DNA of 64,000 nucleotides. It comes from Tsukamurella asaccharolytica. Lineage in GTDB: Bacteria; Actinomycetota; Actinomycetes; Mycobacteriales; Mycobacteriaceae. Numbering within the stretch: the first letter of the stretch is position 1; each line of letters opens with the position of its first letter. This document shows positions 42,776-64,000 of this stretch, piece by piece. The notes below the pieces were generated by a model. That model was not told where the DNA came from, searched no databases, and saw nothing but the letters and a program-made list of their open reading frames with translations. The translations under genes and the position numbers were made by a program. The stretch covers positions 248,001 through 312,000 of the forward strand of contig NZ_VIGW01000003.1 in the NCBI RefSeq assembly GCF_007858435.1, in the 5' to 3' direction.

Positions 42776-42997
42776 CTACGCCGTGACGTCGCCGTTGAAG
42801 AGCACGCGAGTGGCCCGCGCGGACGCGTAGGGCGGCTCCTGCAGATCCACCGAGACGGCGACCCGCGGGTCCTTCGCCAGCAGCCGCCCCTTCGGGGTGT
42901 CCCGGCCGGTGGCGAAGACGAGGGCATACGTCTCCACCTGGATCTCCACCCGTCGGTCGATCCGCCGCACGCCGGGCGGCGGGAGAGTGATCGGCAT
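42776..42997 (-). pseudogene. remnant of a PPOX-class F420-dependent oxidoreductase
   Basis: A minus-strand frame of about 75 codons carries a clear piece of a pyridoxamine-oxidase-like (PPOX) enzyme: ALVFATGRDTPKGRLLAKD, followed by PRVAVSVDLQEPPYASA. That is the flavin/F420-binding beta-barrel core found near the middle of PPOX proteins. It has no N-terminal strand, stops after GDVTA where a full protein would continue for 60 or more residues, and its upstream end runs into the start of the divergent membrane protein gene. It is probably a decayed gene. A short genuine protein cannot be excluded. Confidence 0.5.
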
Positions 42998-43496
42998 GAC
43001 CACAGCAGCCACCGCCGCCATCGCCCTCCTCACCCTCGGTTGGATCTTCTACCGCCAGCGCCAGGTCCGTCCGCTGAAGGACAGGACCGCCCGCATCGCC
43101 CTCGTGCTCGCCGCCATCGGACTGGTCCAGGCGGTGCAGTACGTCTCGTCCGGCGGGGCGGTGGGCGCCGGGCAGGTGGTCGCCGTCATCCTGGGCCTCG
43201 TCATCGCCGTCGCCCTCGCCTACCCGCGGGCGCTGACCACGAAGGTCTTCCCCGGACCCGACGGTGCCTACCTGCGCCAGGGCACCGCGGCCACCATCGG
43301 CCTGTGGATCGTGGCGATCGTCCTCCACGTCGCGGTGGACATCGCCGTTCCCGTCGCGATGGGCGACCACACCGGCCGCGGCTTCACCGGCGTCACGACG
43401 ATGCTCTTCCTCGGCATCACCCTCTACGCCCAGAACTGGTTCCTCCAGCAGCGCGCCGCCGCGCACCGCGCGCAGCAGGAGGTCACGGTCGCCTGA
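42996..43496 (+). CDS. small multi-spanning membrane protein
   Basis: A 166-residue integral membrane protein with about five hydrophobic segments (residues about 3-20, 30-50, 57-76, 97-119 and 128-147) separated by basic loops (YRQRQVRPLKDRTAR). It has a short charged C-terminus. GGGAGAG upstream of ATG 42996 supports the start. I do not recognise the family; it has no signature of a known transporter or enzyme. It is the last chromosomal-type gene before the defence island, and its composition is high-GC like the rest. Confidence 0.75.
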   Translation: MTTAATAAIALLTLGWIFYRQRQVRPLKDRTARIALVLAAIGLVQAVQYVSSGGAVGAGQVVAVILGLVIAVALAYPRALTTKVFPGPDGAYLRQGTAATIGLWIVAIVLHVAVDIAVPVAMGDHTGRGFTGVTTMLFLGITLYAQNWFLQQRAAAHRAQQEVTVA

Positions 43497-43591: not shown

Positions 43592-46500
43592 TCATAGCAC
43601 GGCATCCTCGGACGTCAGAGCATCGACCACCTGCGCGACGCCCACCCGCTGACCGTCGAATACCGAGAATCCAGACGACTCCAGCGCGCAATCCCGGTCC
43701 GGATCCCTCCCGTCTACTATGACTACCCTCGAACTGTGCCACACGGCATCGACGGGCCAACGATCAGTGGTGACCTCCACGCCGAAGTCGGGCTTGTCGA
43801 CGCCAGCCTGTGCGAGTTTCCGCATCAGTGCCCGAAGTGTCGCCGAGACTCCGATCAGTTGGTCGTCCCATTCAGCAGCCTTCACCCCTCCGCCGTTGAC
43901 CAACCGGAGCGACGCAAAGACTGCAAGTGCTGCGCGCCTGGTCAACCGGTCGTGGAAACGAGCGTTCCGGTAACTGCGTAAGCAGCCGTAGCATGACGTC
44001 TCCTCGCCGCACTCGCAGTCTTCAACACGTTGCAGGGACGCCTCCAGAACTGAAGCAAGGTTCTCCGCGATTCGCTTCGAGGCGCCTGCGCCTCCGGGCA
44101 CGGTGTCGAACAGGACGATGCTGCGCTGTCCCTCGGCGCTCCACGACAGAGTTCCGTCGATGTCGTCTCGACTGATTTCGAGACGCTCCGACGCGCCTTC
44201 GAGCAACGCGTACAGAACAGACAGCCAACGCTCCTCCGCATCCCGGTCGTAGGCAAAATCCTGGAAGGTGAATTCAGCGACGTCTGTCTCGTATCGATGC
44301 GCAAGGCTGACGACGCGACAACTTCGGGCGCACGCCGCGCCGGTCACCGGATGATGGTGGCTCCCCGCCCTTCCCGGTCCCGTGATGGGTTCCGCCCATC
44401 CGCACGTGTCGCAGAGACGGTAGCCAGCCCCACCCCCGTCGGAGATGGCGACCAGCCGTGCTCCCGTTCCCGCTCGCGCGGTAACCTGCAATACACCCTC
44501 GGACTTCCACATGAACTCGCGCGTCTCCTCCCCCAGATTCTCGACGTAGCTGCCTCCGTGCCAACGCCTTTCGGGCGGCGCGACACCTACATCGGCTGCC
44601 CGCCGATCGGCGGTGAAACCGAACTCGGGAACGACCATGAACCGCACGTGCTCGAACGTCTCGCCGCATCCGATGCAGATCGTCCCCGGCTCAAGAACGT
44701 GCCCCGATTCGAACCTGCCGCAAGCGCGGCAGACCTGGTACTGGCGGGTTTCCAGTTCCTGCTTCGGAATCTTCCGCAATCCTCTCGACGTCCACACCTT
44801 GCCCCCCGCTACAACCTCGTTGCCCGGGGCGTAATCGTAGATCGCCTGCGTCAGATCTCTCTGCAACTCAAGTCGACCTCCGACCGGATCGGAGCAGTGA
44901 TCGGTGCGCAGCTCGACCGTATCAACGGGAAACCCGTACTTCGGAAGGACGTTGTGATTTGCCAGGTAACCGAGAAGGGGCCGTCGCTCGATGGTGCGCT
45001 GCGTCTTCTGAAGCGCGCTCGCAAGTGGGTACTTCTTCTCCTGGATGGCTTCATCGATGAGGCCGGCGATCGTGCCGAGGTCGTGTTCGATCTCGGCACG
45101 CGCACGATTCAGCCGCTCCGCAAGTTCCGCGACCCAGGCCCCGTCGTCGATACCGACCGCTGAGTGCAGGGCCAACGGCAGAACCGACCGAAGGGCGTCC
45201 TCGATAGTGGCGGGCACGGGGGTGAGGAAGGGGACGACTCCGTCGACCGGCGCCGCTCTACCGTCATCTGCCGTGAAAAAATCGCTGGCATGGCTCCAGT
45301 ACTCACCAGACCGATCGAAGCGAGCCCGGAAGTAGGCTGCGAGGGCAACCGAATGTGCGTGTCGTCGCGCAATTCGCTCGTTCTCGATCGGCACCCACGG
45401 AACGCGCATCTGGCCAGCGATCATCGACACTGGATTCTGGAACTTCGAAATGTCGTGCGAGTTCCTTGTGGCGTAGGTCATCACTAGTGCCGCAGCCGAC
45501 GCACGTCGCCCCGCCCGGCCTGCACGCTGCACGTAGTTCGCCGTTTTTGGAGGCATATTCCGCAAGACCACCGATTGGAGAGCACCGACATCAACACCTA
45601 GCTCAAAGGTCGTTGAACAGGAGAGCACGTTCACTTTGCCATCAATGAACTCGCGCTGAATGAGAGCAGCAGTCTGCGAGTCCCACTGGGCAGTGTGCTC
45701 GCGTGCAGACAGCGGCGCGGGGACCGCAGTCTCGTACAACGTTCGATAGTGGTTGGTATCCGCCACGCCCGAGGGCACCCGATGGGGCGTCAAGGCACCG
45801 CCGCACGTGCCTGCGGGACACACTGCATGTACTGAGAAGGCCCACAGTCGCTGACAAGTCGAGCACCGAAACCACGACGACGATCTACCACTGCGAAGCA
45901 CTAACTTCCTCTGGCACACCTGGTGGACGTCATCGGCGCCCTTCACTGTCGTCTCTACGATGAAACCCGCGCTCCGGAGGTAATCCCAGCATGCTCCAAG
46001 AACCGTGTCAGGATCCACCTTTGCTCCGGTCGCCGCGAGGACTCTTTCAACGAACCGCCGTCGATTGTTGGTCGATCCGCCGCTCGGGCACCAACTGATG
46101 ATCTTCTTCGCTCTATGTGATCCTACCTTCCGGATAGAAATCTTGGCGTTGCGCGGGGCGAACCGCTCTGCACCGACGTCAACATCGTCGAGGAGATCGA
46201 TAGCACCTTGCGTCCGTACCGACTTCAGGAGGACATCGAACAGACTCCACGTCTCGTCCTCGGAGAGGCCAAGCTGTCGGAACCCTGCCGGCAGTGGCGG
46301 AGTATCAGTTCGCCTCACCGCCACACGGAGGAGCCCGAGACCCTCCATCGACTGCTGGTGATCGAGCGTCATCAGCTCACCCATCACCCATTCGTTGGCT
46401 GACCTCGTCCGCACCACGATGCCGTCTGACTCTTCGAAATGCCCCGCAGCTGTGGCCACCTTCTTCGCGAGCATCGCGAGATCCTCTGCCGTCAGGTCGT

Positions 46501-48520
46501 CATCGGCATAAGCCTTGTCCTGTAATGCTCGGGTAAGATAACCCCGCTCCAAGATTCGCTCGTACGTCCGTTTCAGGTACGGCGCTGCGTACGCTGCCGC
46601 CTGACGGGAATCGGAGAACATGAGGAGCTTGCGGCCTTCACCAACGAGTCCGGAGGTGACGTCGTCAGCAGGTGGAAGATTCTGGTACAACGCGGTCGCG
46701 AGCACTGCGGGCGCAGCGTTCGTGTCTGTGCGTAGACGCCGGATCACCTGCCTCGCACGGGTGCCACACTCCGTACAGGTATCCATCACGCGCGAAGTCG
46801 CCTTGTGCTCTCTGGTGTGGATCATGTCGCCTCCGGGACATGCGGAATTTCCGCAGGGAGTTCCTTGAGAGTTCGCGAGAAATCCGCATCCAGAGCACAA
46901 CCCCCGAAGCACCTGATTCCGAGGCACCGGATCCCCCAGGACCTCTTCGTCCTCGTCCTCGGCCGGGTCACGATTGTCGGACCCGGTCAGAACAAGCCAT
47001 TTCACCGGCCCATCCCTCTTAACCGTGGGAACGAAGAACGTTCCCTGCTCGGTCGACTGGGTGTCGCCTGAAAGGTGAACCGCGCCACAGCGAGTGCATG
47101 TTCCGAACTCGAACATCGCGCGGCCGGACTCAGGGTCTCGTTCGTGGCGGGCGAGTAGAACATGCGGCCCGGTGTCACGGAACGCCACGAACGCTCCTTC
47201 CGTCGCCCGAACGAAGAAGTGGTACCGCGCCGAGAGGACAGGGTTCCCAGCGTCATCAGTCACGGCACTGCCCAACGCAACGAGATTCTCCAGCTTGCCC
47301 GCAACATCAGGACCTTCCGGAAAGACCGCCCCCGCGAGATCTTGGACGTCCTTAGGACCGTTCGGCAGCAGAGCCTTGAGTTCAACGATGTGCTTCTCGG
47401 CGGAGAGCGCATCCGCCTCGTTTCCGTCAGGGCTGCGCTCGGCGAGCTGAGCGCGATCTGCGTCAGATTGAGTCCAGGCGTCGAGCTGGCTTCCAGACAT
47501 CTCCCAGGTTGCACGATCGGGTGTACGAGCACGCGTCGCGTAAATGACGTCCTGTCTCGCGGTGTCGCCCTCTGAGAACTCGAAGTCGACCGCGAACAGA
47601 TTTCGAGCGAACGAGGCCGTCTCCTCCGGAGTTCCGTCGAGAGAGGCCGATGTTGCAATGCACTGCAAAGACGCGGTCGGAGCCACGCGCTGCCGGAGTC
47701 GTCGAAGCAGCAGCGCAACCTCACTTCCTTGCGCACCATCGTAAACGTGAGCCTCGTCCAGAGCGAGGATCTTCCACGTCCCACGATGAGGACCATCAAA
47801 CAGATCGATATCCTTAGGACGGAGCAAAAGATACTCCAGCATGGCATAATTGGTCAACAAGATGTGCGGCGGATTCGCTCGCATCTCCGCCCGGCTGATC
47901 ATTTCGTTCGGAAGCCTATCCGCCTCCTTATAACTCGCCCGCCACGACTTAAGTGCGTCAACTTCACTCTCTTTTGTCTCACCCGTGTAACGACCGAAGG
48001 TAATATCGGGCGAGTGCGCAAGAATCGCACGGAGCCTGCCCAGCTGATCGTTGGCGAGGGCGTTCATCGGGTACAGGAGTAGGGCCCGGACGCCCGGGCC
48101 AAGTCTGCCCGAAGCTCGCTCTGCAACGAGATGATTGAGAATCGGGATGATGAAGCTTTCGGTCTTCCCTGAGCCAGTTCCGGTACTGACAACAAGGTTT
48201 CTCCCCGCGACGGCCTTGCGGATAGCTTGCTCCTGGTGAACGAACAGTGGGCGGGATAGCGGCAGTGCATCTCCGCCCACATAACCGAATTCGGAGTGGA
48301 GAACTCCCTCAGTCATGAGGTCACTCAGCGACGAACCGGGCGCGTAGGGTGGCGTTAGCTCTAGGAGCGGACCTCGAGTCAGGTGCCTCGCGCCATCAAC
48401 CGCAGCGTCGAAGGCCGCCGCGATCGCGGGATCACGCGGCGCGAGCATCGTCTTCAAGTATCGCCTGTAGGTGGCCTCAATTTGTCTGGTGGTCTTCAGA
48501 GGGTCCAGTCGATTATTCAT
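43592..48520 (-). CDS. druE: Druantia-type DruE-like DEAH helicase with DUF1998 C-terminus
   Basis: A 1642-residue superfamily 2 helicase of the MrfA/Hrq1/DruE type. Walker A is GTGSGKT (residues 114-120), LLLYPMNALANDQ is motif Ia, and the DEAH box is at 255-258 (LALDEAHVYDGAQGSEVALL). A very long cysteine-rich insertion before motif IV carries several CxxC pairs (CTRCGAVH, CSGCGF, CTECGTR, CSTCQRL). Motifs V-VI are FELGVDVGALQSV and YVQRAGRAGRR. After another CxxC pair (VCRACGR, CIGCGE), the C-terminus has VPGGAGASKRIAENL and a four-Cys DCECGEETSCYGCLRSYRN, the DUF1998 pattern. It overlaps the upstream DruH-like gene (ATGA). Together with that partner it matches Druantia type III. GC is visibly lower than the core genes (30 of 60 bases in 47821-47880), a sign of transfer. 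Confidence 0.75.
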   Translation of the reverse strand: MNNRLDPLKTTRQIEATYRRYLKTMLAPRDPAIAAAFDAAVDGARHLTRGPLLELTPPYAPGSSLSDLMTEGVLHSEFGYVGGDALPLSRPLFVHQEQAIRKAVAGRNLVVSTGTGSGKTESFIIPILNHLVAERASGRLGPGVRALLLYPMNALANDQLGRLRAILAHSPDITFGRYTGETKESEVDALKSWRASYKEADRLPNEMISRAEMRANPPHILLTNYAMLEYLLLRPKDIDLFDGPHRGTWKILALDEAHVYDGAQGSEVALLLRRLRQRVAPTASLQCIATSASLDGTPEETASFARNLFAVDFEFSEGDTARQDVIYATRARTPDRATWEMSGSQLDAWTQSDADRAQLAERSPDGNEADALSAEKHIVELKALLPNGPKDVQDLAGAVFPEGPDVAGKLENLVALGSAVTDDAGNPVLSARYHFFVRATEGAFVAFRDTGPHVLLARHERDPESGRAMFEFGTCTRCGAVHLSGDTQSTEQGTFFVPTVKRDGPVKWLVLTGSDNRDPAEDEDEEVLGDPVPRNQVLRGLCSGCGFLANSQGTPCGNSACPGGDMIHTREHKATSRVMDTCTECGTRARQVIRRLRTDTNAAPAVLATALYQNLPPADDVTSGLVGEGRKLLMFSDSRQAAAYAAPYLKRTYERILERGYLTRALQDKAYADDDLTAEDLAMLAKKVATAAGHFEESDGIVVRTRSANEWVMGELMTLDHQQSMEGLGLLRVAVRRTDTPPLPAGFRQLGLSEDETWSLFDVLLKSVRTQGAIDLLDDVDVGAERFAPRNAKISIRKVGSHRAKKIISWCPSGGSTNNRRRFVERVLAATGAKVDPDTVLGACWDYLRSAGFIVETTVKGADDVHQVCQRKLVLRSGRSSSWFRCSTCQRLWAFSVHAVCPAGTCGGALTPHRVPSGVADTNHYRTLYETAVPAPLSAREHTAQWDSQTAALIQREFIDGKVNVLSCSTTFELGVDVGALQSVVLRNMPPKTANYVQRAGRAGRRASAAALVMTYATRNSHDISKFQNPVSMIAGQMRVPWVPIENERIARRHAHSVALAAYFRARFDRSGEYWSHASDFFTADDGRAAPVDGVVPFLTPVPATIEDALRSVLPLALHSAVGIDDGAWVAELAERLNRARAEIEHDLGTIAGLIDEAIQEKKYPLASALQKTQRTIERRPLLGYLANHNVLPKYGFPVDTVELRTDHCSDPVGGRLELQRDLTQAIYDYAPGNEVVAGGKVWTSRGLRKIPKQELETRQYQVCRACGRFESGHVLEPGTICIGCGETFEHVRFMVVPEFGFTADRRAADVGVAPPERRWHGGSYVENLGEETREFMWKSEGVLQVTARAGTGARLVAISDGGGAGYRLCDTCGWAEPITGPGRAGSHHHPVTGAACARSCRVVSLAHRYETDVAEFTFQDFAYDRDAEERWLSVLYALLEGASERLEISRDDIDGTLSWSAEGQRSIVLFDTVPGGAGASKRIAENLASVLEASLQRVEDCECGEETSCYGCLRSYRNARFHDRLTRRAALAVFASLRLVNGGGVKAAEWDDQLIGVSATLRALMRKLAQAGVDKPDFGVEVTTDRWPVDAVWHSSRVVIVDGRDPDRDCALESSGFSVFDGQRVGVAQVVDALTSEDAVL

Positions 48521-51500
48521 TCCGCAACTCCGATCAGGTCACCGTGGCGATGATTGAGGACTAGCGCCTCGGCGATCAACAGATCGTTGAGGACCAGTCG
48601 AGGGGCGAGTTCTGCCATGCGCGACCAACAGGCGACAGTCGGCCCCTTCCAGGTGAAGCGCGTCTCTACGTCGTGCGCGGAGAGTCGCGCCAGCAGCGCG
48701 AGTACGAGCGATTGCGACGGCAACGTGAGCCATGGCTGTTTTTCGAGATCAAGGCCGTCAAGTTTGGCCATACGTTCTGAGGACACTGCTGCGAGCTTGG
48801 GGGCTGCCCTTCTGAGTCTGACCGACCCGAGCATCACCTGTTTGGCGAACTCCTCCACCTCAGATGCAGCCCTCCCCCACGCGTACCGCGACGCGAACGC
48901 CTCCTGGAGAGCGACCGATCTGCCCGTCGAGCTCAAAAGAGCGCCGGGAACCAACCCGAGCCCCTCGACGATCTCCTCAATCTGGGCCTTCGGCATCGTG
49001 TCGAGCTTGACGTACACCTGGTCGAACGTCGCGTCCATGATCTCGCTCGTCGGGCCGCCACGTAAGGTGCGACAGAGTTCCCGGCCGCCTTTGTCCTGGA
49101 GATATCGAATTGATTCCGCACGCTGGCGCCCCGAGGCGTCGTCACCGTTCACGAGCAGCGGAAGGCGAGCCGACTCGATCATGCAGCCGACCCAAGGGTT
49201 GTTGTGTACAGGACCGCCCGCCGGGCCCGGATCGAAGCTGCGCCGAACCACGCCAGTGCGGATCGCGAGCGCTGCCAGAATGCCCCGAGGAAGCCCCGAG
49301 TTACCCAGCGCCTCAAGCGCTTGGAGCGGCTCTCGACTCAACCGTGCGGTCAACTCTCGATCGACCCTCAGCGCACTCTGCCCGTGCAAGTCCATTAGAT
49401 GCGCCAAAGACGCCCACACGTCCTGAAACCCGAGGTTCTCAGGGAACGCACCTGGTTCTCCTGCAAGGAGTCGCGCCAGTTCGTTTCGCGTGGGATCCGA
49501 GTCAGTGATCCAACCGGGCTGGTTCACGCGAGTGACAGCCGACTTGGGCCGCGCGGGCGGCGCGACCGACGCCCATGGATCGTCGAGGTACACCGTGACG
49601 AGAAGGGGTCCCCCCTTGATCAGCGCCGGAGGCAGCGTCGCGGCGGCGCCCCGAATGGACAACTTTTCTGCTGGTCTCCACGGGGCCGTCTCAGCCCAAA
49701 CGAACGCTGCCAGGTCCTCGCCCTCCGCAACACCATCCAGGACAAGACTTTCACCCACCAGGTCAATCCTATCGAACAGGCGTGCGGCCCGGAATCTCGC
49801 GATAGTGACTCGGATTTCGCGACTCTGGTGCACAATCTGTGCCACGAGGGAGCAATCGCCCGCGTTCTTCACTACATCGTGAATCTCGCGAGTACTGATC
49901 GAGTGTACGAAACCCGAAACCGTGGGGTCTACGGTCTTAATCACAACGCCGCGTGAACTCAGGACCACAATACGAACTTCCGCATGACCCGGCACTCTGA
50001 CAGCAAACACTCGGTTCTCGGCGAGTTCCTTGGGGTCGACGTGTTCGACTGAGGTCCGCCAGGGAGCGTGGCCGGCCGCCATGCTGTAGCGGACTTCGAC
50101 CCGAGGCGGGCGCACTACCAGTCGACAACCGAGATCCGCGCTGTGAATCGAAATAGCTCGTTCCACGTCGCGTGCGGCGAACTGGATCTCACGTGTGTCC
50201 ACACGGAGTTCCTCCCCCGGTTCAATGACCGCGGTCACCGGAGCAACCCCGTCCGCCACCGGAAACCTAATCGGCCGGCTAAGAGTGACACTCAACCCCT
50301 CGGCGAGGAAAACCAATAGGCGGGCATTCGATCCGAGTGGACCTGTCACTGAAATCTCGAACATGCCCAAGAGACCGGCTTTTAGCCCTTCGAACGGATC
50401 GACAGTGATCTCCGCGCCGCCAGTGTCCCAGGCGCGTTCCACCAGGTAGCCCACCTCGCCCGCACGCCGGGTGCGGATGTGCCAGACGGCTGGGCCCTCG
50501 CCCGCCGGGAGAATCACTGCGGGTCGTTGCGAATACACCGGATACTCCTGCACCGTCGTCGTTCCTTCGATCTGTGCAGGAAGCGAGAAGGCTGCACTTG
50601 CGGCGCTCTTGAATTCCCGCAACGGCCCACGAGCAGCGTCCGATCGGACATAGAACCCACTGACCCCAGTCGGATCGACATCGACCGCCCGCCAGCCGGG
50701 CCATCCGGCGACCGCGCCGATGAGGCCAACTGGTAGCTCTTTGCCTTCCCGATCAAAGAGTTTCGCGGACTGAGCCAAGAGAGCGATCAGCGGTCGCTGC
50801 GGCAAGGTGGTCCCCGCGGGAATGTGGCGGCCGTCCTGACCAAACAGCAGCATCGGATCGAGCGCGTCCACCAGGGGGATAGAGGTGTGGATGCTGCTTG
50901 GACGGTGCTGCACCACCACCTCGCGGACTGCGCTCGCTACGGGGAACACCGTCGCAGGATGATCCGTTCCGTCAATACCCCATCCTCTGTCCGCGATCAC
51001 CTCTTTGACCGCTCCATCCAAGGACACCGTCCAAGGCACTTCCGGCCCAGCAGGCGGATAGGGAAGCCTTACCTGCACTTGCGCATCGGACGCCGAGTAG
51101 GCAACCGTTGGACGGCTGCGAATCGCCCCGCGACGCTCGCGTGTGACGGAGAACTCGCCCGTGAGAACATCGATCAGGCTGTGAAGCAGGACCGTAGGCA
51201 ATCCAGTGGTGGCGGTGTCGAGCTGAAGCGATTGCCAATCTTCACGGATGCGCGCAAGCTCGACGAATTCTACGATCCGATTCAAGACATCTATTGCCAG
51301 TTCGCGCCCGTACCGAAGGAAGTTCTGTACAGGAACGTCGAGGGCACTCATCCGATGCGTCTTGCCGGGGGTATTCAGCCATCCGATGACGGACGGACCA
51401 TTCGCGTCACGCCCTGCATCGAGATGCCCGTTAATCACGTCGACTAGATCCACCAGGCAGTAGCGGGGAATTCCGCCGTGCATAGCTACGACCTGCACGT

Positions 51501-51888
51501 ATTGCCCAGCAAGCTCCGGAAACTGACGCAGGCCGAACTTCTTCGTCAGCGGTACGATCTTATGCCTCAGAAACGCCTCCGCGCTCTGGTCGCGTTCCAC
51601 GGCGAGAGCCGCCCAGAATGAGTCCCAGTATCCCCCCTGCTCGTACTCCAACGACGCGTGCCCGACCAGCGTAACGAGCACCGAGGCCGGATACCGCTCG
51701 ACCACCGCAGCCATCGTGGAGCGGGAAAGCAGAGCTCGTTCGATTCTGGCACCGAGCTCTTGCTGGAGCCGGCGTACTGCCCCTTCATCGAGATTTGCCT
51801 CCAGCACAAGCAAACTGCGATCAAGCAGTCGCGCGATCCGATACTCCTCGTCGATCAACCAGCGCTCGTCGGCAGCCGAACCGCCCAT
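48517..51888 (-). CDS. druH: Druantia type III DruH-like protein
   Basis: An 1123-residue soluble protein of no domain I can name. ATG 51888 follows an AGAGGTGG ribosome site; a GTG twelve bases upstream is the alternative. The N-terminal third is helical, with SLEYEQGGYWDSFWAALAVE, and VVAMHGGIPRYCLVDLVDVINGHLD. The middle (about 270-760) is rich in beta strands, like repeated immunoglobulin-like domains (WTVSLDGAVKEVIAD, GMFEISVTGPLGSNARLLVFLAEGL). The C-terminal 350 residues are helical again. It has no helicase, nuclease or membrane motif. Its length, its position directly before a DruE-like helicase and the four-base overlap fit DruH of Druantia type III. This is an assignment by context, not by sequence search. 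Confidence 0.6.
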   Translation of the reverse strand: MGGSAADERWLIDEEYRIARLLDRSLLVLEANLDEGAVRRLQQELGARIERALLSRSTMAAVVERYPASVLVTLVGHASLEYEQGGYWDSFWAALAVERDQSAEAFLRHKIVPLTKKFGLRQFPELAGQYVQVVAMHGGIPRYCLVDLVDVINGHLDAGRDANGPSVIGWLNTPGKTHRMSALDVPVQNFLRYGRELAIDVLNRIVEFVELARIREDWQSLQLDTATTGLPTVLLHSLIDVLTGEFSVTRERRGAIRSRPTVAYSASDAQVQVRLPYPPAGPEVPWTVSLDGAVKEVIADRGWGIDGTDHPATVFPVASAVREVVVQHRPSSIHTSIPLVDALDPMLLFGQDGRHIPAGTTLPQRPLIALLAQSAKLFDREGKELPVGLIGAVAGWPGWRAVDVDPTGVSGFYVRSDAARGPLREFKSAASAAFSLPAQIEGTTTVQEYPVYSQRPAVILPAGEGPAVWHIRTRRAGEVGYLVERAWDTGGAEITVDPFEGLKAGLLGMFEISVTGPLGSNARLLVFLAEGLSVTLSRPIRFPVADGVAPVTAVIEPGEELRVDTREIQFAARDVERAISIHSADLGCRLVVRPPRVEVRYSMAAGHAPWRTSVEHVDPKELAENRVFAVRVPGHAEVRIVVLSSRGVVIKTVDPTVSGFVHSISTREIHDVVKNAGDCSLVAQIVHQSREIRVTIARFRAARLFDRIDLVGESLVLDGVAEGEDLAAFVWAETAPWRPAEKLSIRGAAATLPPALIKGGPLLVTVYLDDPWASVAPPARPKSAVTRVNQPGWITDSDPTRNELARLLAGEPGAFPENLGFQDVWASLAHLMDLHGQSALRVDRELTARLSREPLQALEALGNSGLPRGILAALAIRTGVVRRSFDPGPAGGPVHNNPWVGCMIESARLPLLVNGDDASGRQRAESIRYLQDKGGRELCRTLRGGPTSEIMDATFDQVYVKLDTMPKAQIEEIVEGLGLVPGALLSSTGRSVALQEAFASRYAWGRAASEVEEFAKQVMLGSVRLRRAAPKLAAVSSERMAKLDGLDLEKQPWLTLPSQSLVLALLARLSAHDVETRFTWKGPTVACWSRMAELAPRLVLNDLLIAEALVLNHRHGDLIGVAE

Positions 51889-52418
51889 GATTCCACCCAC
51901 CTCTTATGAATCCAGCTCATGCTGCACGACACTTTAAATCGGACGTCTGACACGATTTCGGGCACCCGCGGGTTCACCCCACGGGGCGCACCGAGCCGAA
52001 GTTCGCGACGACGGTCGCCTGGTTCGTGATAGCAAGGATAGGGCTGCATTGCGCCGCCGGGGCATGTATCACGCCATATCGCCCCTCGGCGATGGAGACC
52101 AGCGGCGTGAGATATCCGCTTCAGATCGAGCGGGCTCCCCTTCCTGTGGTCGCACGCGCCGCCCTCGTAGCCACTGTTCGGCTCCGGGGCAATCCGGTCG
52201 CGGCAGCGGTCACTTCCTGCGTGAGTCTGCAGCCTTACCGCAAACGACCTCAGCCGCAGGACCCGGGCGTCCCGGGAGGTCTTTCCTAAGCGGCAAGGCG
52301 GGCACCCCGCTCGACCGTTCCGGTCCCACACGTCCACTCCAACCGGGGCAACCCGGGGATACCCGACATAGCGCCCATGGTTGACTTGTAAAGTCGGGCT
52401 CAGAGCGGGGTTCACCCG
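51889..52418. promoter_or_regulatory. divergent control region between the two defence operons
   Basis: 530 bases with no convincing gene. The only long open frames are antisense extensions of the helicase start. It carries GACTTGTAAAGTC, a 13-base palindrome at 52383-52395 overlapping a -35-like TTGACT, 23 bases before the drmD start. CCGGGGCAACCCGGGG and CCCGGGCGTCCCGGGAGG give local hairpins. The region lies between two systems and may include both promoters and an old junction. Confidence 0.45.
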
Positions 52419-55397
52419 GTGGACTCGGGGGTGCGAGTGGGTATGACTGTGATCAACGACGGGCACATCGGTACCAGCGAGGCGTCGGCCGACAGCGGGT
52501 TCAAGGGCGCTCCGGGATCCATCGCCGTCGTGCGCGATCAGGAGTGGCTCGTCACCGCGGTGGAGCCGACCGCGGACGGCTTCTTCGTCCACGTCACAGG
52601 CCTGTCCGAGCTCGTCCGCGACACCTCAGCCGTGTTCTCGACAGCGCTCGACCGGATCGACGAGGTGGACCCGACCGCGGTCACCGTCGTCGCGGACCCG
52701 TCGGAGCGGTTCCGTCGCAGCCGCCTGTGGCTGGAGGCGATGTTCCGCAAGACTCCGATCGCCGTGACCGACCCCGGATTCGGCACGGCGCAGCGCGGCC
52801 TCGCGAAGCCGCTCGACTACCAGGTGAAGGCCGTCGCGAAGGCCCTGGATCCGGACAAGCTCCGCCCGCGCATCCTGCTGGCCGACGCCGTCGGGCTGGG
52901 CAAGACGATCGAGATCGGGATGATCCTCTCGGAACTGGTCAGACGGGGCCGGGGCGACCGCATCCTCATCGTGACCCCGAAGCACGTGCTCGAGCAGATG
53001 CAGATGGAGCTGTGGACGCGCTTCGCGCTCCCTTTCGTCCGCCTTGATTCCGCCGGGATCCAACGCATCCGGCAGGTACTGCCCGCCAGTCGCAACCCGT
53101 TCACCTACTTCAAGCGCGTCATCATCTCGATCGACACGCTCAAGAGCGACCGGTACATCGCGAACCTGCAGAAGCAACGGTGGGACGCGGTGGTGATCGA
53201 CGAGTCGCACAACGTCACGAACACCGCCTCACAGAACAACCGGCTCGCACGGCTGCTGTCGAAGCAAACCGACGCGCTGATCCTCGCATCGGCGACGCCG
53301 CACAATGGCCGCGCCGATTCCTTCGCCGAGCTGGTCCGCATGCTCGACCCCACCGCCGTCTCCCCCGAAGGCGAGCCCGACTACGCGGAGGTGGCCAAGC
53401 TCGTCATCCGCCGCCACCGCCACCATCCCGACGTTGCCGGCGAGGTCGGCTCGGACTGGGCCGAGCGGCAGCCGCCCCACAACGTGGTCGTGCCCGCCAC
53501 CGCGGCGGAGGACGCGATCGCCCGCGAGCTCGAGGACGTGTGGCTCTGGCCGGAGAGCGGGTCGTCGCCGTACTCGGGGCAGAACTCGTCGCTTTTCCCG
53601 TGGACCCTCGCGAAGGCGTACCTCTCCTCCCCCGCCGCGCTGCTGCAGTCGGTGCGGGAGCGCCGGCGCCGCATCGATGCGGCGGTGCCCAAGCAGGCGA
53701 CGGAGCTGGCGGCGCTGGATCGCCTCGCCGATCTCACCGAGGCCGTCCCGATGGCGTCGTCCGCCAAGTACGTCGAGCTGCGAACGCAGTTGGACGAGAT
53801 GGGCGTCAGCAGGTCCGGCAGTGCGCGGGTGGTGATCTTCGCCGAGCGGGTGGCCACTCTCACCGCGCTCGCCGAGCAGCTCGCCGCGGATCTCACGATG
53901 ACCTCGACCAGGGGCGCCGACCTCGGCCAGGTCGCCGTGCTCCACGGCGGGCTCAGCGATTCCGAGCAGACCGAGATCGTCGAATCGTTCAAGCTCGAGT
54001 CGTCGCCGATCCGGATCCTCGTCACGGGTGACGTGGCCTCCGAGGGCGTGAACCTGCATTCACAGTGCCACCAGCTGATCCACTACGACATCCCGTGGAG
54101 CCTCATCCGGATCGAGCAGCGCAATGGACGCATCGACCGGTACGGGCAGAAGCACCGGCCCCGGATCACCACACTGCTCCTCACGCCCAGCACCGCCCAC
54201 TTCGCCGGCGACCTCCGCGTCCTCGCCCGGCTCGTGGACCGCGAGCACGAGGCGCACCAGGCGCTCGGCGACACCGCGTCCCTGATGGGCACCTACGACG
54301 TCAAGGCCGAGGAGGAATCGATCCGGCAGGTGCTGGCCGGCCAGAAGGAGCTCGAGGCCGTGGTCAAGACCGTCGACGAGGTCGCGGCCGGAACCGGCCT
54401 GGACTCCTTCTTCGCGCAGCTCGCCCTCGGCGGGATCGCGCAGGATCCGCCCGCCGAGCAGCCCGCGAGCGAGGGCTTCCACGGTGCGGGCGTCTACGAC
54501 TCGGAGTTCGAGTTCCTCTCCGACGCCCTGCACGAGTCGTACGTGCACCCGCAGAACGCGCCGAAGGACGGCGTGGATTGGGCGGTGCACAAGCAGTATT
54601 CGATCGCCAGCCTCACGCCACCGAAGGACCTGCGCCAACGTCTGGATGTCCTTCCACAGGACTACCTCAAGGCCCGTTCGATCCGGGAGACCTACAAGCT
54701 GGCCTACACGCCCGCGCGCGGCGAGCAGGAGCTGGTCCAGGCCCGGTCGGGTGCGTCGACGTCCACCTGGCCCGAGGCGCACTACCTCGCTCCGCTGCAC
54801 CCGATCCTGGACTGGGCCGCCGATCGCGCCCTCTCGGAGCTGGGACGGTCGCAGATCTACGCGGTCCGTGGCGCGGTCCCCTTCCCGACGATTCTGGTCC
54901 AGGTCACGCAGACCAACCTGCGCGGCCAAGTGGTGGCGGCCGGCTATTACACGGTCGCCTTCCCAGTGCCGGGCGATCCCGGCGCGTCCCTCGTCGAGCC
55001 CCACACTGGCGCACACGAGGCGGTCGCGGAATTGGCCATCGCGCAGGTCAACACAGGCGACATCGATGGTGCGTCGAACCTGCAGCCCCTCGTGGCCGCC
55101 GCGGTGCACGCCGCCGACGCCAACGCCAAGAACCAGGCGGAATCCGTCCGCGCCGAGTCGGCCGACCGAATCCGGGCGTGGGTCGCGCGGTCGGAGGCCT
55201 GGCAGCACGAGGCGGGCGCGCTCATCCAGCGCGCCGACCTCCGTGACCAGAGCAAGCGGATCGCGGAGGAGAAGGAACTCGCAGAGGCGATGAATCCAGC
55301 ACGGCGCCTTGCCCGCCCGCTGATGGTCGTGGTCCCGGAGGATTTCGATCCCGCGGCCCTCGGCTCCCCGGCCTCGACCACCGGATCGGAGGACTGA
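52419..55397 (+). CDS. drmD: DISARM-like SNF2-family helicase (DrmD-like)
   Basis: A 992-residue SNF2/Rad54-type helicase. The ATPase lobe 1 has LADAVGLGKTIEIGMIL (Lys about 162), TPKHVLEQMQMELWTRF and the DESHN Walker B (residue about 261), with LILASATPHNGRADSFAEL as motif III. Lobe 2 has VVIFAERVATLTALAEQL, VLHGGLSDSEQTEI, ILVTGDVASEGVNLHSQCHQLIHYDIPW and IEQRNGRIDRYGQKH (about 565). The last 300 residues are helical and charged. It ends two bases before the methyltransferase gene. SNF2 helicase plus large N6-adenine methyltransferase is the drmD-drmMI start of class 1 DISARM. GTG 52419 was taken; ATG 52443 is an alternative. Base composition is high (44 of 60 in 54241-54300). Confidence 0.75.
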   Translation: MDSGVRVGMTVINDGHIGTSEASADSGFKGAPGSIAVVRDQEWLVTAVEPTADGFFVHVTGLSELVRDTSAVFSTALDRIDEVDPTAVTVVADPSERFRRSRLWLEAMFRKTPIAVTDPGFGTAQRGLAKPLDYQVKAVAKALDPDKLRPRILLADAVGLGKTIEIGMILSELVRRGRGDRILIVTPKHVLEQMQMELWTRFALPFVRLDSAGIQRIRQVLPASRNPFTYFKRVIISIDTLKSDRYIANLQKQRWDAVVIDESHNVTNTASQNNRLARLLSKQTDALILASATPHNGRADSFAELVRMLDPTAVSPEGEPDYAEVAKLVIRRHRHHPDVAGEVGSDWAERQPPHNVVVPATAAEDAIARELEDVWLWPESGSSPYSGQNSSLFPWTLAKAYLSSPAALLQSVRERRRRIDAAVPKQATELAALDRLADLTEAVPMASSAKYVELRTQLDEMGVSRSGSARVVIFAERVATLTALAEQLAADLTMTSTRGADLGQVAVLHGGLSDSEQTEIVESFKLESSPIRILVTGDVASEGVNLHSQCHQLIHYDIPWSLIRIEQRNGRIDRYGQKHRPRITTLLLTPSTAHFAGDLRVLARLVDREHEAHQALGDTASLMGTYDVKAEEESIRQVLAGQKELEAVVKTVDEVAAGTGLDSFFAQLALGGIAQDPPAEQPASEGFHGAGVYDSEFEFLSDALHESYVHPQNAPKDGVDWAVHKQYSIASLTPPKDLRQRLDVLPQDYLKARSIRETYKLAYTPARGEQELVQARSGASTSTWPEAHYLAPLHPILDWAADRALSELGRSQIYAVRGAVPFPTILVQVTQTNLRGQVVAAGYYTVAFPVPGDPGASLVEPHTGAHEAVAELAIAQVNTGDIDGASNLQPLVAAAVHAADANAKNQAESVRAESADRIRAWVARSEAWQHEAGALIQRADLRDQSKRIAEEKELAEAMNPARRLARPLMVVVPEDFDPAALGSPASTTGSED

Positions 55398-55399
55398 CC

Positions 55400-58300: not shown

Positions 58301-60088
58301 CAGGCTCAGGTGAAGGAGAAGCGCGAGGCGGCACTCGCATTGCCCGGCATCTCGGATCTCGTCCTCGACGGAACCGCCGATATCGCAGCGACAGCGGGGT
58401 TTATAGGTGATGCCCGAATGTATCCCCAACTCGCCGGCCTGCAACCCGATCTATACCGCTGCTTCATGGAACTGACGTGGCGACATATTTCCCAGCACGG
58501 GAAGGTAAGCCTCGTCCATCCGGAGAGCCATTTCACCGACGAGAAGGCCGGCGCCTTAAGGGAATCTTCATACACCCATCTACGTCGTCACTGGCAGTTT
58601 GTCAATGAGCTCAGCCTCTATGAGGTGGACCACCACGTTGCCTATGGAATTCACGTGTACGGTCAGCCCATAAGCCCTAACTTTCTTAATGCGTGCTCCC
58701 TCTTCCACCCTGATACGGTCACCCGGTCATTCGAATACGACGCTGCGGGACCCGAGCCCGGCATCAAGTCACTCGACGGAGAATGGGACTTGAGCCCCCA
58801 CTCGGGACGAGTCGTGGTGGTCGATGACAGCATCCTCAAAACGTGGCGCGATACGCTCGAATCATCATCCACACCGATTCGTAGAACTCGCATGGTATAC
58901 GCGGTGAATAAATCTATCGCACAGGTCGTCGCCAAGCTTTCCCAAAGGCCTCGAATCGAAACCGTTCCTCTCCAATTCTCAAATGGATGGCATGAGAAGA
59001 ACGATCGATCAAAAGGTAGATTCGACATAGGTTGGGGAGCGCCGAACACTTGGAGCGAAGTGATCCTACAGGGGCCGCACATCTCTGTCGCCACTCCAAT
59101 CGTGAAGCACCCCAACCCCACGATGCTCCACCAGACGGACTGGTCAGAAACCGATCTCGAGACATTGACCCCGGATGCGATCCCGATAACGTCATATAAG
59201 CCTGCCGGTCGTCCGGACGCATTCGACGCGAGCTATCGGCGATGGAACGTGCCTGATGAAGTCGGGGCCATTCATACCGTGAATCCGCGCGAGCATTACA
59301 GGGTCGCGTGGCGCAACATGACGAAGTCCACAAACGAACGCGCCTTCTTTCCGGCGATCATACCTCCTGGCCCCACTCACATACACGGCGTCACTTCGGC
59401 AGGCGACCCGACAGGGGCATCGGACCGAATCGTGGCCATTGCCGCCACACTGGGGTCCCTGCTGGCGGATTTCTGCACTCGAGTCGCGCCGAAATCAACA
59501 ATCTCCGCGGCGACCGTAAATCGTATGCCCTGGAACGAAACCGATATCTTGCAACACCAACTAACGATACGTTCACTGCGACTCAACTGTGTTACACGAG
59601 AATACACACGACTATGGTCGGCATGCTTCAACGATGCCCTGCAGTTGGATACGTGGGCGGGAGGATTCGAGCACCGTCGAAGGAAGCCAATCGGCGATAT
59701 CGGTCCCGAGTGGACCCCGGACACACCACTTCGGATTGCGGCGGACCGTCGGCAGGCACTGGTGGAGATCGACGCACTGGTGGCACTCGGCCTCGGCATC
59801 ACCGCGGACGAGTTGTGCACCGTGTACCGAACCCAGTTCCCCGTGCTCTACGGGTACGACCGGAACAAGTACCTCTACGACATGAACGGCCGCCTCGTCC
59901 CGCAAGAGGTACTGGTCCGCTGGCGCAAGAAGGGCGACGACCTCACCGAGGAGGAGCGGACGGCGACGAACACGTCGGGTAACACGTATACGTACGAGCT
60001 GCCGTTCCAGTTCCTCGACCGCGAGAAGGACATGCGGGAGGCGTACGCCGAGTTCGAACGCCGGCTGGCGGAGAAGGGCGAGGTCTGA
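55400..60088 (+). CDS. drmMI: DISARM-like N6-adenine DNA methyltransferase (DrmMI-like)
   Basis: A 1562-residue Eco57I/PglX-type methyltransferase that likely marks host DNA as self. Start GTG 55400, two bases after drmD. Residues 1-500 are a helical N-terminal region with no visible nuclease PD-(D/E)XK motif. Motif X is RQQSASYYTPEVLTRF (about 522), motif I is CEPAMGSGAF (about 565) and motif IV is NPPW (about 939) in QVGNPPWVRPR. This gamma-class order puts some 370 residues between I and IV. Residues about 1000-1430 are a target-recognition-like region encoded by DNA with clearly lower GC (29 of 60 in 59521-59580 against 40 of 60 in 57181-57240), so it may have been exchanged. The C-terminus resumes high GC. 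The stop is two bases before the next gene. Confidence 0.8.
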   Translation: MSAPSDALIVGDEFLSEHYFTTDAKSQSFQAKALERRKAWDGAKSDGAATTRSRYTTSRSTLARSLSGLEEAADAQTLDTLYNDLRSILGYDNSIRWETARLGGFDHEPGPAIEYRTRGLTGPAPFVIIEAAGGLTVEDLLAKNEKTLLRDFHTEDDTITSVAGLLSRLFVEDDGPRFALVLAGSIALITEKERWLEGRYLAVDLQLVGERNDDKRGGETDRALTCLDADSLAPDSDGDIWWSTVLGESVKHTVGVSKDLREGVRLSIEIIANEVVERRAAQGLEPLPNDQAQVLAGQSLRFLYRVLFLLYAEATPELAVLPTGDQTYERGYSLDRLRELLPVEIVTPRAQAGTHFYDSLAVLFDLVDRGHDGGSAGNDGAYAEGLTFGALRAELFRPEAIAHIATVKLGDEALQRVLRHLLLSKEAKGRDRGFISYAELGINQLGAVYEGLMSYTGFFAQEDLYEVAKHGNPEDGSWVVPEDRIASISPSDFVKAPDENGELKPVIHRRGTFVFRLAGRERQQSASYYTPEVLTRFTVGQALEELLDQDDSTTTADEILDLTVCEPAMGSGAFAIEAVRQLAEQYLKRKQDETGERIDPDQYAIELQRVKSYLALHQVYGVDLNATAVEFAEITLWLDTMGPGLAAPWFGLHLRRGNSLIGARHTVIPADQVTDRGYIEATPVDVPLTDGLTNHHNAVHHFLLPTTGWGSTVDAKEAKNLAPETTAKLKDWRKTFRRKPTAAQVRGLRNLALRTEVLWGFALRRLEIAESEIRRDIPLWGRDFTPTGGAVSREQIEASLADENGAYRRLRRVMDAWCALWFWPLTDGDRTVDGAIVVPPSLDEWIDTLTDLLGNPVKETRGEKAGQGNLYDVSTWEELTDAEESDLLFAQAKPVDGALSTHPWLVVAERVAQRQGFFHWELDFAPVFKRGGFDLQVGNPPWVRPRSDVDALLAEGDPWFQLTVKPTQAQVKEKREAALALPGISDLVLDGTADIAATAGFIGDARMYPQLAGLQPDLYRCFMELTWRHISQHGKVSLVHPESHFTDEKAGALRESSYTHLRRHWQFVNELSLYEVDHHVAYGIHVYGQPISPNFLNACSLFHPDTVTRSFEYDAAGPEPGIKSLDGEWDLSPHSGRVVVVDDSILKTWRDTLESSSTPIRRTRMVYAVNKSIAQVVAKLSQRPRIETVPLQFSNGWHEKNDRSKGRFDIGWGAPNTWSEVILQGPHISVATPIVKHPNPTMLHQTDWSETDLETLTPDAIPITSYKPAGRPDAFDASYRRWNVPDEVGAIHTVNPREHYRVAWRNMTKSTNERAFFPAIIPPGPTHIHGVTSAGDPTGASDRIVAIAATLGSLLADFCTRVAPKSTISAATVNRMPWNETDILQHQLTIRSLRLNCVTREYTRLWSACFNDALQLDTWAGGFEHRRRKPIGDIGPEWTPDTPLRIAADRRQALVEIDALVALGLGITADELCTVYRTQFPVLYGYDRNKYLYDMNGRLVPQEVLVRWRKKGDDLTEEERTATNTSGNTYTYELPFQFLDREKDMREAYAEFERRLAEKGEV

Positions 60089-60090
60089 GA

Positions 60091-63000: not shown

Positions 63001-64000
63001 GCCCCCTGCCTCGTCCAGCGCTGCGAGGGGACGTTGCAGCGCCATCACATCGACGACAACTTCTACCGGCACATGTACGCCTCCACGGACATTCGCCGTG
63101 TGGTGGCGCGCGAACACACCAGTCTGCTGCCCGACGAGAAGCGCCTCGAGTACGAGAACCGTTTCAAGATGACCGATCCCCCGCCGAACGCGCCGAACGT
63201 CCTCGTCGCCACACCCACCCTCGAGATGGGCATCGACATCGGCGATCTCTCGGCGGTCATGCTTTCGTCCCTGCCCCGCACCGTCGCGTCGTACCTGCAG
63301 CGCGTAGGCCGCGCCGGCCGACTCACCGGCAACGCCCTGGCCCTGGCGTACGTCACGGGACGCGGCGATCAGCTCCCGCGCTTCACCCGACCGGACGAGA
63401 CGATCAACGGCACTGTACGTCCGCCGGCTACGTATCTCGACGCCGAGGAGATCCTGCGGCGCCAGTTCACCGCGTCCGTCGCCGATATCCTGGCCCGCCG
63501 CCCCGACACACCCCACCCGCACACCACCCCGGATGCACTGAAATCGACGGGACCGCAGTCCTACCTGGGAGCGTTGATCGCCGAGGCTGAATCCCGGGCG
63601 GCGGACCTGGTCGACCAGTTCCTCGGGGCGTTTCCGCCCCTGGGCGACGATGTGACCGCACACCTGCGGCAGTTCCCGGATCCGGCGGACGGCCCCGGGA
63701 CGAGCCTCCTCGCGCAACGCTGCCAACGCGCCTCGTTCGAGTGGAACCGCCGCATCGAGACGTTGCAGCACCGACTGAAGGCGGTGCGCGCACTCATCCC
63801 CGAGCTGCGGACCAGAGCGACGTCCCCTGCCGCCACCTCCGATGACAAGGACGAGCTGCGCACCGCGGAGGCCACCGCGCGTCTCATCGACAGGCAACTG
63901 ACTAACCTCAACTCAACGTACTGGATCAGCGCGCTGGAGACCTTCGGGTTGTTCCCCAACTACACGCTGCTCGACGATTCTGTGACGCTCGCCGTCTCGG
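60091..64000 (+). CDS. very large helicase, DISARM DrmA/DruE-like (cut by window end)
   Basis: An open frame from ATG 60091 runs to the end of the window (more than 1303 codons, no stop). Helicase motifs: GTGSGKT at 109-115 with TLVTTGTGSGKTETFLYP, LVLYPMNALANDQ, DEFH at 238-241 (in place of DEAH) in LVLDEFHTYDGAQGTDVSMLL, SAT at about 290, motif V TPTLEMGID at about 1041 and motif VI QRVGRAGR at about 1070. Between them lies an insert of about 750 residues with cysteine pairs (YCRHCNRSGW, CPSCKQ, ICSTCRAP). This is the MrfA/Hrq1/DruE family build, like the 43592-48520 gene, so the missing C-terminus may be a DUF1998 domain. It follows the methyltransferase by two bases. In class 1 DISARM this place is held by drmA, followed by drmB and drmC, which would lie beyond the window. 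Confidence 0.7.
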   Translation, partial: MAELLPLSQAETIKASLLDYLGTTFALADPDAKQVLDEFLQDPKTGMFRGPYVRLRLPFRPAADGWRESLEWYEGFTPYGHQAAAFERLSSYNLTPEKPRPQPTLVTTGTGSGKTETFLYPILDHVQRAKRNGQTGTKALVLYPMNALANDQASRLTELLTSNPALGGITAALYTGESGPKRGRVTAEGLITEREIIRDTAPDILLTNYKMLDQLLLRPADAELWKQSATSLQYLVLDEFHTYDGAQGTDVSMLLRRLGQTLKSYWHDDEPGITTEDRERPLGRITPVATSATLGDGNDPTTMLEFAHTVFGDAFTAESVVTESRRSVADWSDGAEARVTAAGLPPKETDTSTIAAITADPDDPFAASCTVLGTLYQKSPAAIARAIGQDESLLLDLVRAHPMIHELMRRTRAAVTVDELGGPHVVGPLLTLLSHVRASPAGGRAAASVEVHLWIRELTRIDRALSGAPRFIWADDGVVIDQMEDHHEVTYLPSTYCRHCNRSGWGAVLAPTGTDLDADDTTIRRRSLNKDDRFRALIHAPKEALDAEAGPAASPDDPTGLAWLMVQERRISLQRPDELYLAEGLALPVLMNLGDDAGADSVKQTCPSCKQPDGIRFLGSAIATMLSVSMSTLFGTPELDSREKRALVFTDSVQDAAHRAGFVQARSHALTLRTLIRQALNDGPSDLDSLTHRVLALAGDDQAARFRLLPPELAERSDFAKFWTAKTAAGVPLKLRNAMARRLALDTALEFGLRSGVGRTMERTGTALAYLDVPTSKLLAIGHEVVRSPDVQTSLDDPEDAILLRWIQGVLLHLRQRGAIAHPWFERYRQEDGNRWWITGGRKRGEGMPGFGRGSSAPAYPITGKSGETDLEPIASPRGWYAKWTAKSLGMTAIEGGTLARILFDRLHHRDVVERTTTQSGAQTYGLPPTSVIARTVTARELADDAVSLICSTCRAPLYSAPEVVQQMLGAPCLVQRCEGTLQRHHIDDNFYRHMYASTDIRRVVAREHTSLLPDEKRLEYENRFKMTDPPPNAPNVLVATPTLEMGIDIGDLSAVMLSSLPRTVASYLQRVGRAGRLTGNALALAYVTGRGDQLPRFTRPDETINGTVRPPATYLDAEEILRRQFTASVADILARRPDTPHPHTTPDALKSTGPQSYLGALIAEAESRAADLVDQFLGAFPPLGDDVTAHLRQFPDPADGPGTSLLAQRCQRASFEWNRRIETLQHRLKAVRALIPELRTRATSPAATSDDKDELRTAEATARLIDRQLTNLNSTYWISALETFGLFPNYTLLDDSVTLAVS

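Follow-up and report, generated by a model that had tools for sequence, protein, structure and literature searches.

A Druantia III-like gene pair and a divergent ARMADA type II operon share a putative anti-phage hotspot in Tsukamurella

What are the two groups of very large helicase genes that diverge from a common spacer in Tsukamurella asaccharolytica, and do they belong together? We analyzed a stretch of 64,000 nucleotides (RefSeq assembly GCF_007858435.1, contig NZ_VIGW01000003.1, positions 248,001 to 312,000; hereafter, the window) and read the right operon past the window end using the next 38 kb of the contig. An initial annotation described two operons diverging from a shared region of about 530 bases, with a DUF1998-type helicase and an overlapping partner on the left, and an SNF2 helicase, an N6-adenine methyltransferase and another giant helicase on the right. 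The open reading frames (ORFs; Table 1) bear out this layout, and Pfam and PADLOC support the helicase and methyltransferase assignments. The spacer is 518 or 530 bp long because the partner gene may start at GTG or at an ATG four codons downstream (1123 aa in the latter case). The partner and helicase genes overlap by 4 bp. The lower GC content reported for the left unit is also real (61-62%, vs. 68-69% for ArmA, ArmC and ArmD, 60% for the second half of ArmB and 73% for the host flank). The gene order recurs in relatives, and thus is not a chance ORF pattern.

We conclude, with a probability of roughly 0.8, that a hotspot of Tsukamurella holds two divergent anti-phage systems with YprA-family helicases, a Druantia III-like pair and an ARMADA type II operon with an EcsC gene, which would act as proposed below. 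Gene content, domains, insertion site, variation at the site, repeated co-location and partner exchange between lineages are seen directly in the sequences.

The right operon appears to be a complete ARMADA type II operon plus an EcsC gene, and this assignment is well supported. ARMADA II is defined as armA-armB-armC-armD, with a RelE-like N-terminus on ArmD (Bell et al., 2025, PMC12458937; statements from this and the other cited papers refer to the parts of their text available to us). The E. coli proteins used for comparison are those that follow Zorya II and Druantia III on plasmid NZ_CP026578.2, a stretch that ends inside armC and places ArmD outside the comparison. ArmA has a Pfam SNF2-rel_dom domain and is 35% identical to E. 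coli ArmA over 812 columns. ArmB, a PglX-like protein with NPPW and S-adenosylmethionine-type motifs, is 33% identical to its E. coli counterpart over 1425 columns. The N-terminal half of ArmC is 30% identical to E. coli ArmC. The protein includes an MZB domain and a Vsr-type nuclease signature that was assigned by eye, no Pfam nuclease domain having matched; the positions of its PD..DG..H..DDAxKR motif are invariant in 12 of 12 aligned rows (window and 11 relatives). ArmD, fourth in order, matches UvrD in Pfam and GajB in PADLOC, and its N-terminal domain of about 120 aa, identified as RelE by resemblance, is conserved in 13 rows. Residues 1-216 (of 229) of the EcsC protein match positions 1-216 (of 220) of PADLOC model PDC-S29 at 245 bits.

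In the left unit, the helicase is clearly DruE. PADLOC DruE models match it at 593 and 565 bits, Pfam identifies DEAD, Helicase_C and MZB domains (the DUF1998/MZB helicase expected of Druantia type III), and identity to E. coli DruE is 26-27% in two blocks. A profile of the window DruE finds PDB 9tu7 at E 2e-116, and E. coli DruE matches the same chain over its length. E. coli DruE ends in two PLD domains (PMC13192584). No HKD (PLD) motif was found in the window DruE, which ends about 130 aa past MZB and does not have the E. coli form of the C-terminus. By hhalign (probability 98.4%, E 5e-15) its tail can be aligned to the final domain of ArmC, and we apply to it the term degenerate Vsr-like domain of Bell et al. 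(PMC12458937). The initial annotation called this unit Druantia type III-like and listed a lack of DruE/DruH or Drm profile matches for either unit among the results that would refute its reading. With PADLOC, DruE matches and DruH does not. "Like" is therefore the right strength, since DruE is clear and the partner matches no DruH model.

Table 1. Features of the island and its flanks, in window coordinates (positions above 64000 lie beyond the window).
Feature	Position	Strand	Remarks
Left flank, 199-aa ORF	42897-43496	+	Stop at island edge
Island	43497 to ~69830 (~26 kb)		Between two convergent host genes
DruE-like YprA-family helicase, 1642 aa	43592..48520	-	ORF list, PADLOC, Pfam; DEAD 95-299, Helicase_C 947-1006, MZB/DUF1998 1437-1514, putative degenerate Vsr-like tail; HKD (PLD) motif absent
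DruE partner, in DruH position	48517..51900	-	1127 aa from GTG; no Pfam, NCBIfam or PADLOC match
Divergent spacer	51901..52418		Decayed XRE-type helix-turn-helix remnant at ~52118-52370
ArmA-like SNF2/RapA helicase, 992 aa	52419..55397	+	GLGKT at 159-, DESH at 261-
ArmB-like N6-adenine methyltransferase, 1562 aa	55400..60088	+	NPPW at 939
ArmC-like YprA-family helicase, 2098 aa	60091..64000 in window, ends at 66387	+	C-terminal Vsr/DUF559-like nuclease signature, then putative degenerate Vsr-like tail
ArmD, 740 aa	66387-68609 (beyond window)		RelE-like N-terminus and UvrD; downstream of armC
EcsC/PDC-S29 protein, 229 aa	68613-69302 (beyond window)		Last gene of right operon
Right flank, ilvA		-	Stop facing island

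To place the island edges, we compared the window region by blastn with the corresponding site in the other genomes of the genus (14 of 15, all but G011). The right edge is approximate because G006 and G012 contain short matches to positions 69381-69643, before ilvA. Of 16 genus genomes, 14 have both flank genes (G010 has one and G011 none), and 10 of these 14 lack the island. The flanks abut in G003 and G014, and less than 0.7 kb replaces the island in G002, G004, G006, G007, G008, G009, G013 and G015. About 0.6 kb is present at the site in G010, where the left flank is rearranged, and T. tyrosinosolvens has one small annotated gene between ilvA and the next flank gene. A record of that species also matches the host flank at window positions 18000-42800 (89.7% over 99%). 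Elsewhere the site is occupied by a type I restriction-modification (R-M) system (G001, another species of the genus; L135, C300), by ORFs that are of metabolic type by inspection (G012), or by a PIN-domain gene and an ARMADA II operon of 74-78% identity (G005), with no Druantia pair and no EcsC match. This variation marks the gap between the two convergent genes as a hotspot, and the ARMADA-only site of G005 indicates that the Druantia pair and ARMADA were separately gained or lost within it. The initial annotation had set the finding of the same genes here in all close relatives as evidence against an assembled island; the site varies. Assembly of the island in separate steps, as proposed there, appears well supported by the G005 site and by conflict between the DruE and ArmC trees.

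No tRNA was identified in the 64-kb window, and a Pfam scan of island proteins showed neither a transposase nor an integrase. To this extent the claim that neither operon contains a mobile element inside the window stands, the rest of the window being unannotated for mobile genes. A mobile element at a tRNA was rejected as an explanation on the same findings, the site being a gap between convergent genes. The helix-turn-helix remnant in the spacer shows stops and frame changes; the XRE-type gene upstream of armA in G005 is nearly intact, with a frame break. Scans of positions 51700-52600 for sigma-70 promoters and terminators found none.

The two systems occur together repeatedly. The partner was searched in 401 genomes of the family (78 with a match at E 1e-3), as was ArmD (94 at E 1e-60), and DruE in 59 family genomes chosen for ArmD or strong partner matches, 26 of which have it. 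Four more genomes (G135, G048, G086 and G099) were added from the neighborhoods of distant partner matches, giving 30 loci. These are not a blind sample, though the partner search alone also finds all 30. Among the 29 inspected (G310 was left out), 24 have armA, armB or armC within about 25 kb of the DruE-partner pair, in four gene orders; G170 is counted across a contig break, and in G063 and G138 armA adjoins the partner at a contig end. The divergent order of the window is found in 14 genomes (G000, G041, G188, G109, G379, G073, G314, G210, G255, G092, G063, G138, G170 and G206, the last with an extra ArmD-like gene between). Five have a co-directional ARMADA-partner-DruE array (G373, G135, G048, G086, G099), two have partner-DruE followed by ARMADA (G349 and G215; in G215 ArmA and ArmD alone were seen), and three are convergent (G250, G130, G360).

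DruE was found in 20 of 394 genomes of the class. In two of the loci outside the family, G433 and G696, ARMADA core genes, partner and DruE all run in one direction as an array. G467 has weak ArmA/ArmC-type and ArmD-type matches alone. The partner profile matches 12 of 16 loci outside the family, several of them partial ORFs, and ORF selection hid DruE itself in G452 and G467. In a set of named genomes, an alignment-based contig scan gave 31 loci that overlap the family loci (an earlier scan gave none), and DruE follows the partner in 29 of them.

Other arrangements were noted in these neighborhoods. In Nocardia loci L246, L248-L250, L253, L256-L258, L266, L268 and L269, an ArmD-like gene lies directly behind DruE and convergent to it; the 10-kb flanks contain no ARMADA core, and G130 and G250 (L246, L248) have armC slightly further on. 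Extra ORFs between armB and armC include one with a nucleotide-cyclase domain in G379 (C1:3565951-3568182) and an AAA ATPase in G109 (C12:90615-92576).

DruE and ArmC trees (quick trees, LG+G4 model, SH-aLRT support) share 18 genomes, and the groups tested were named after the trees were seen. The DruE data reject a clade of G000, G206, G092 and G045, which belong to one ArmC lineage (approximately unbiased (AU) test, p 5e-78). The ArmC data reject the DruE grouping of G000, G041 and G045 (AU p 9e-8, in a test between deeply separated ArmC lineages). This conflict indicates that the systems were combined more than once, or that one was replaced in place.

By analogy with characterized systems, ARMADA, comprising the ArmA motor, the ArmB methyltransferase, the ArmC helicase-nuclease and ArmD, would act directly on phage without abortive infection, and an exchangeable C-terminal region of ArmB may set target or self recognition, the latter being our own suggestion. 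The Druantia-like pair could be a second line of defense, in which the 1127-aa protein would sense late phage proteins and hand over to DruE, presumably a 3'-5' helicase on single-stranded phage DNA. As the window DruE is without the PLD nuclease that its E. coli counterpart carries, DNA cutting would have to come from the partner or from neighbors such as ArmC, a final step that is our conjecture.

Several findings count against this reading. Pairing is not universal: G262, G187 and G344 have ArmD-like genes alone, G388 has no ARMADA genes in 28 kb, and ARMADA is 1.6 Mb away in G045. In the 10-kb flanks of the named set, 8 of 29 loci have ARMADA core genes, 16 an ArmD-like gene alone and 5 neither. 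Outside the family, 2 of 16 newly fetched loci (G433 and G696) have ARMADA core genes and 13 have none. Of two tests made on single pairs, the one that joins G000 with G206 for DruE gives no rejection (p 0.07). The RelE and Vsr assignments in ArmD and ArmC come from motif reading, and a PDB profile search with the ArmD N-terminus found no solved relative. The partner is unmatched by any PADLOC model, even at E 5, and its whole-length hhalign probability against DruH is about 1%. Finally, the clustering may be a shared habit of hotspots, not joint action.

That last point leads to the alternative that survives best, in which the units are independent tenants of a defense hotspot, brought close by the general clustering of defense genes and with no joint mechanism. 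We consider this a real possibility, at somewhat less than even chances. It is favored by the type I R-M system (G001) and the ARMADA operon without Druantia (G005) at the same site, and by DruE-partner pairs with no ARMADA in view. It explains less readily why 24 of 29 family loci have an ARMADA core nearby in four orders, including tight co-directional arrays, or why two such arrays occur in other families. Within the family DruE and ARMADA are strongly linked; beyond it the linkage is patchy. The recurrent pairing suggests, without proving, that the two systems work better as a pair.

A second alternative is that the left unit is a new kind of two-gene system. Its partner would have no relationship to DruH and would have been recruited from an actinobacterial family, some members of which also occur alone. 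The partner gene has the size and position expected of druH. Relationship to DruH was assessed using PADLOC, hhalign with single sequences and with profiles, and a profile of the N-terminus checked against 100 column shuffles and its own reversal. The PADLOC DruH models do detect E. coli DruH (1830 bits), and the lack of a DruH model match for the partner is in keeping with a new system. Against all seven DruH sequences (E. coli DruH and six relatives), the partner profile gives E of about 0.05; as controls, two DruH profiles, built from four and three sequences, detected one another at E 2e-48, and a pair of distant single sequences gave E 9e-11. Also in keeping are DruE-less partner relatives that adjoin smc (L162) or sugar transporters (L163, L164, L167). 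However, the N-terminal 270 residues of the partner align in register with DruH, with a score of 28.3, vs. at most 24.0 in 100 of 100 column shuffles (pairwise E 0.003, probability 11%). We take this as a hint of remote homology to DruH, not proof. Moreover, a Mycolicibacterium pair of nearly equal sizes has been published as DruH-DruE (PMC13316683). We judge a new two-gene system unlikely, and retain the Druantia III-like assignment.

Other searches with the partner were less informative. A PDB profile search gave nothing useful, and tblastn against plasmids gave no match. A fingerprint of the residues mutated in M. smegmatis DruH and DruE did not discriminate for DruH, as decoys scored as high or higher. 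For DruE it was weak, reaching at most 5 of 8 positions, in 7 ORFs that include DruE of G215 and G349 (natural start). Four partner relatives without DruE, in small-genome members of the family (L162, L169, L170, L173), adjoin another large ORF, which encodes the SMC protein in L162; three more are beside sugar transporters. The partner gene is interrupted by a stop in a Nocardia seriolae locus (L088, G360; L251).

Variation within armB bears on what the right operon may recognize. Compared in steps of 50 residues, the ArmB proteins of the window and G005 are 62-94% identical to residue 1000, 38-72% at 1001-1450 and 98-100% at 1451-1550. The low-identity part has a GC content of 49-63%, with a dip at window positions 58400-59750. 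Residues of about 1000-1450 are probably a recognition region that has been exchanged relative to G005. In G041 (C1:29495-37128, L068/L069), the 3' part of armB is present a second time as an inverted copy (85%), close to a gene for a phage-integrase-family recombinase, which suggests that ArmB specificity is probably switchable (phase-variable) in that genome. An AbiEii-like gene is also located near the inverted copy. The available text of Bell et al. (PMC12458937), outside its references, does not mention invertible or phase-variable specificity, and a narrow search of titles and abstracts revealed no paper joining such recognition switching with Druantia.

A bolder proposal, which we consider quite improbable, is that Mycobacteriales have a single composite defense machine made up of ARMADA II plus the nuclease-less DruE-partner pair, repeatedly reassembled with differing gene orders and sometimes encoded as a single six-gene array. 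DruE would have given up its nuclease as the ArmC Vsr nuclease or ArmD cuts, and the ArmB region that is exchangeable, and in one relative invertible, would set the self mark for the whole.

Two readings of the right operon were rejected on gene content. A stand-alone type IIG R-M gene with chance helicase neighbors is very improbable: the best PADLOC match of ArmB is indeed a type IIG model (full length, 1402 bits), but the same four genes follow one another in different genera, and the alignment with E. coli ArmB spans 1425 columns. The least credible is a DISARM variant, and the "DISARM-like" label of the initial annotation is replaced by ARMADA II: PADLOC does report DrmD (302 bits) and DrmA model PDLC02572 (216 bits) on one protein and DrmMI (179 bits), but the NCBIfam DrmD score misses its cut-off (324.5 vs. 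610 bits), DrmA-model matches land on both SNF2 and YprA helicases, the island has no separate DUF1998 (DrmB) or PLD (DrmC) gene to complete drmA+drmB+drmC, and the third and fourth genes (a single YprA helicase with fused MZB and Vsr-like signature; RelE-like plus UvrD) are as in ARMADA II.

The combination of Druantia III with ARMADA II is already known from E. coli, where the two are adjacent, synergy was measured and both are on putative mobile elements (PMC12458937). What is new here is that the pairing recurs in actinobacteria, one-operon composites included, that this DruE has no PLD motif, and that the recognition region of ArmB looks exchanged and, in one relative, invertible. That the pair has been made again in another phylum, from different lineages and in different gene orders, independently hints at selection for keeping the two together. 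The natural variants (divergent, single array, ArmD alone, ARMADA alone at the same site) can be used for testing coupling. The loci also reveal a DruE clade whose partner family is missed by current PADLOC DruH models.

Compared with DISARM class 1, the right operon shares an SNF2 (DrmD-like) protein, a methyltransferase and DUF1998 helicase ancestry, but has helicase and DUF1998 in one protein and no DrmB or DrmC gene. Unlike PDC-S29 (EcsC family) as modeled in PADLOC, the EcsC gene is here the last gene of an ARMADA operon. The Zorya II-Druantia III-ARMADA II array of E. coli (NZ_CP026578.2) also has Druantia III and ARMADA II adjacent. There the Druantia and ARMADA genes all run in one direction, whereas they diverge in the window; the window partner is not recognized as DruH, and DruE has 1642 aa and no HKD motif, vs. 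2104 aa (2114 aa in another E. coli record) and two PLD domains (PMC13192584). The type III Druantia of M. smegmatis, MSMEG_1253/1254, has been validated and is activated by a phage minor tail protein (Li & He, 2026, PMC13316683). It too consists of two overlapping genes (1132 and 1667 aa, vs. 1127 and 1642 aa in the window, a comparison by size alone) and, according to its authors, lacks a canonical nuclease domain; the available text mentions no ARMADA neighbor. Relative to ARMADA II as described by Bell et al. (PMC12458937), the window operon is actinobacterial, diverges from the Druantia unit and has an EcsC gene behind armD; neither a Zorya system beside it nor a tRNA or integrase at its site was seen. 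It shares the A-B-C-D order, the YprA helicase with C-terminal Vsr-like nuclease, the PglX-like methyltransferase, the RelE-like plus UvrD ArmD and, as with Druantia III in E. coli, a neighboring Druantia unit, here Druantia III-like.

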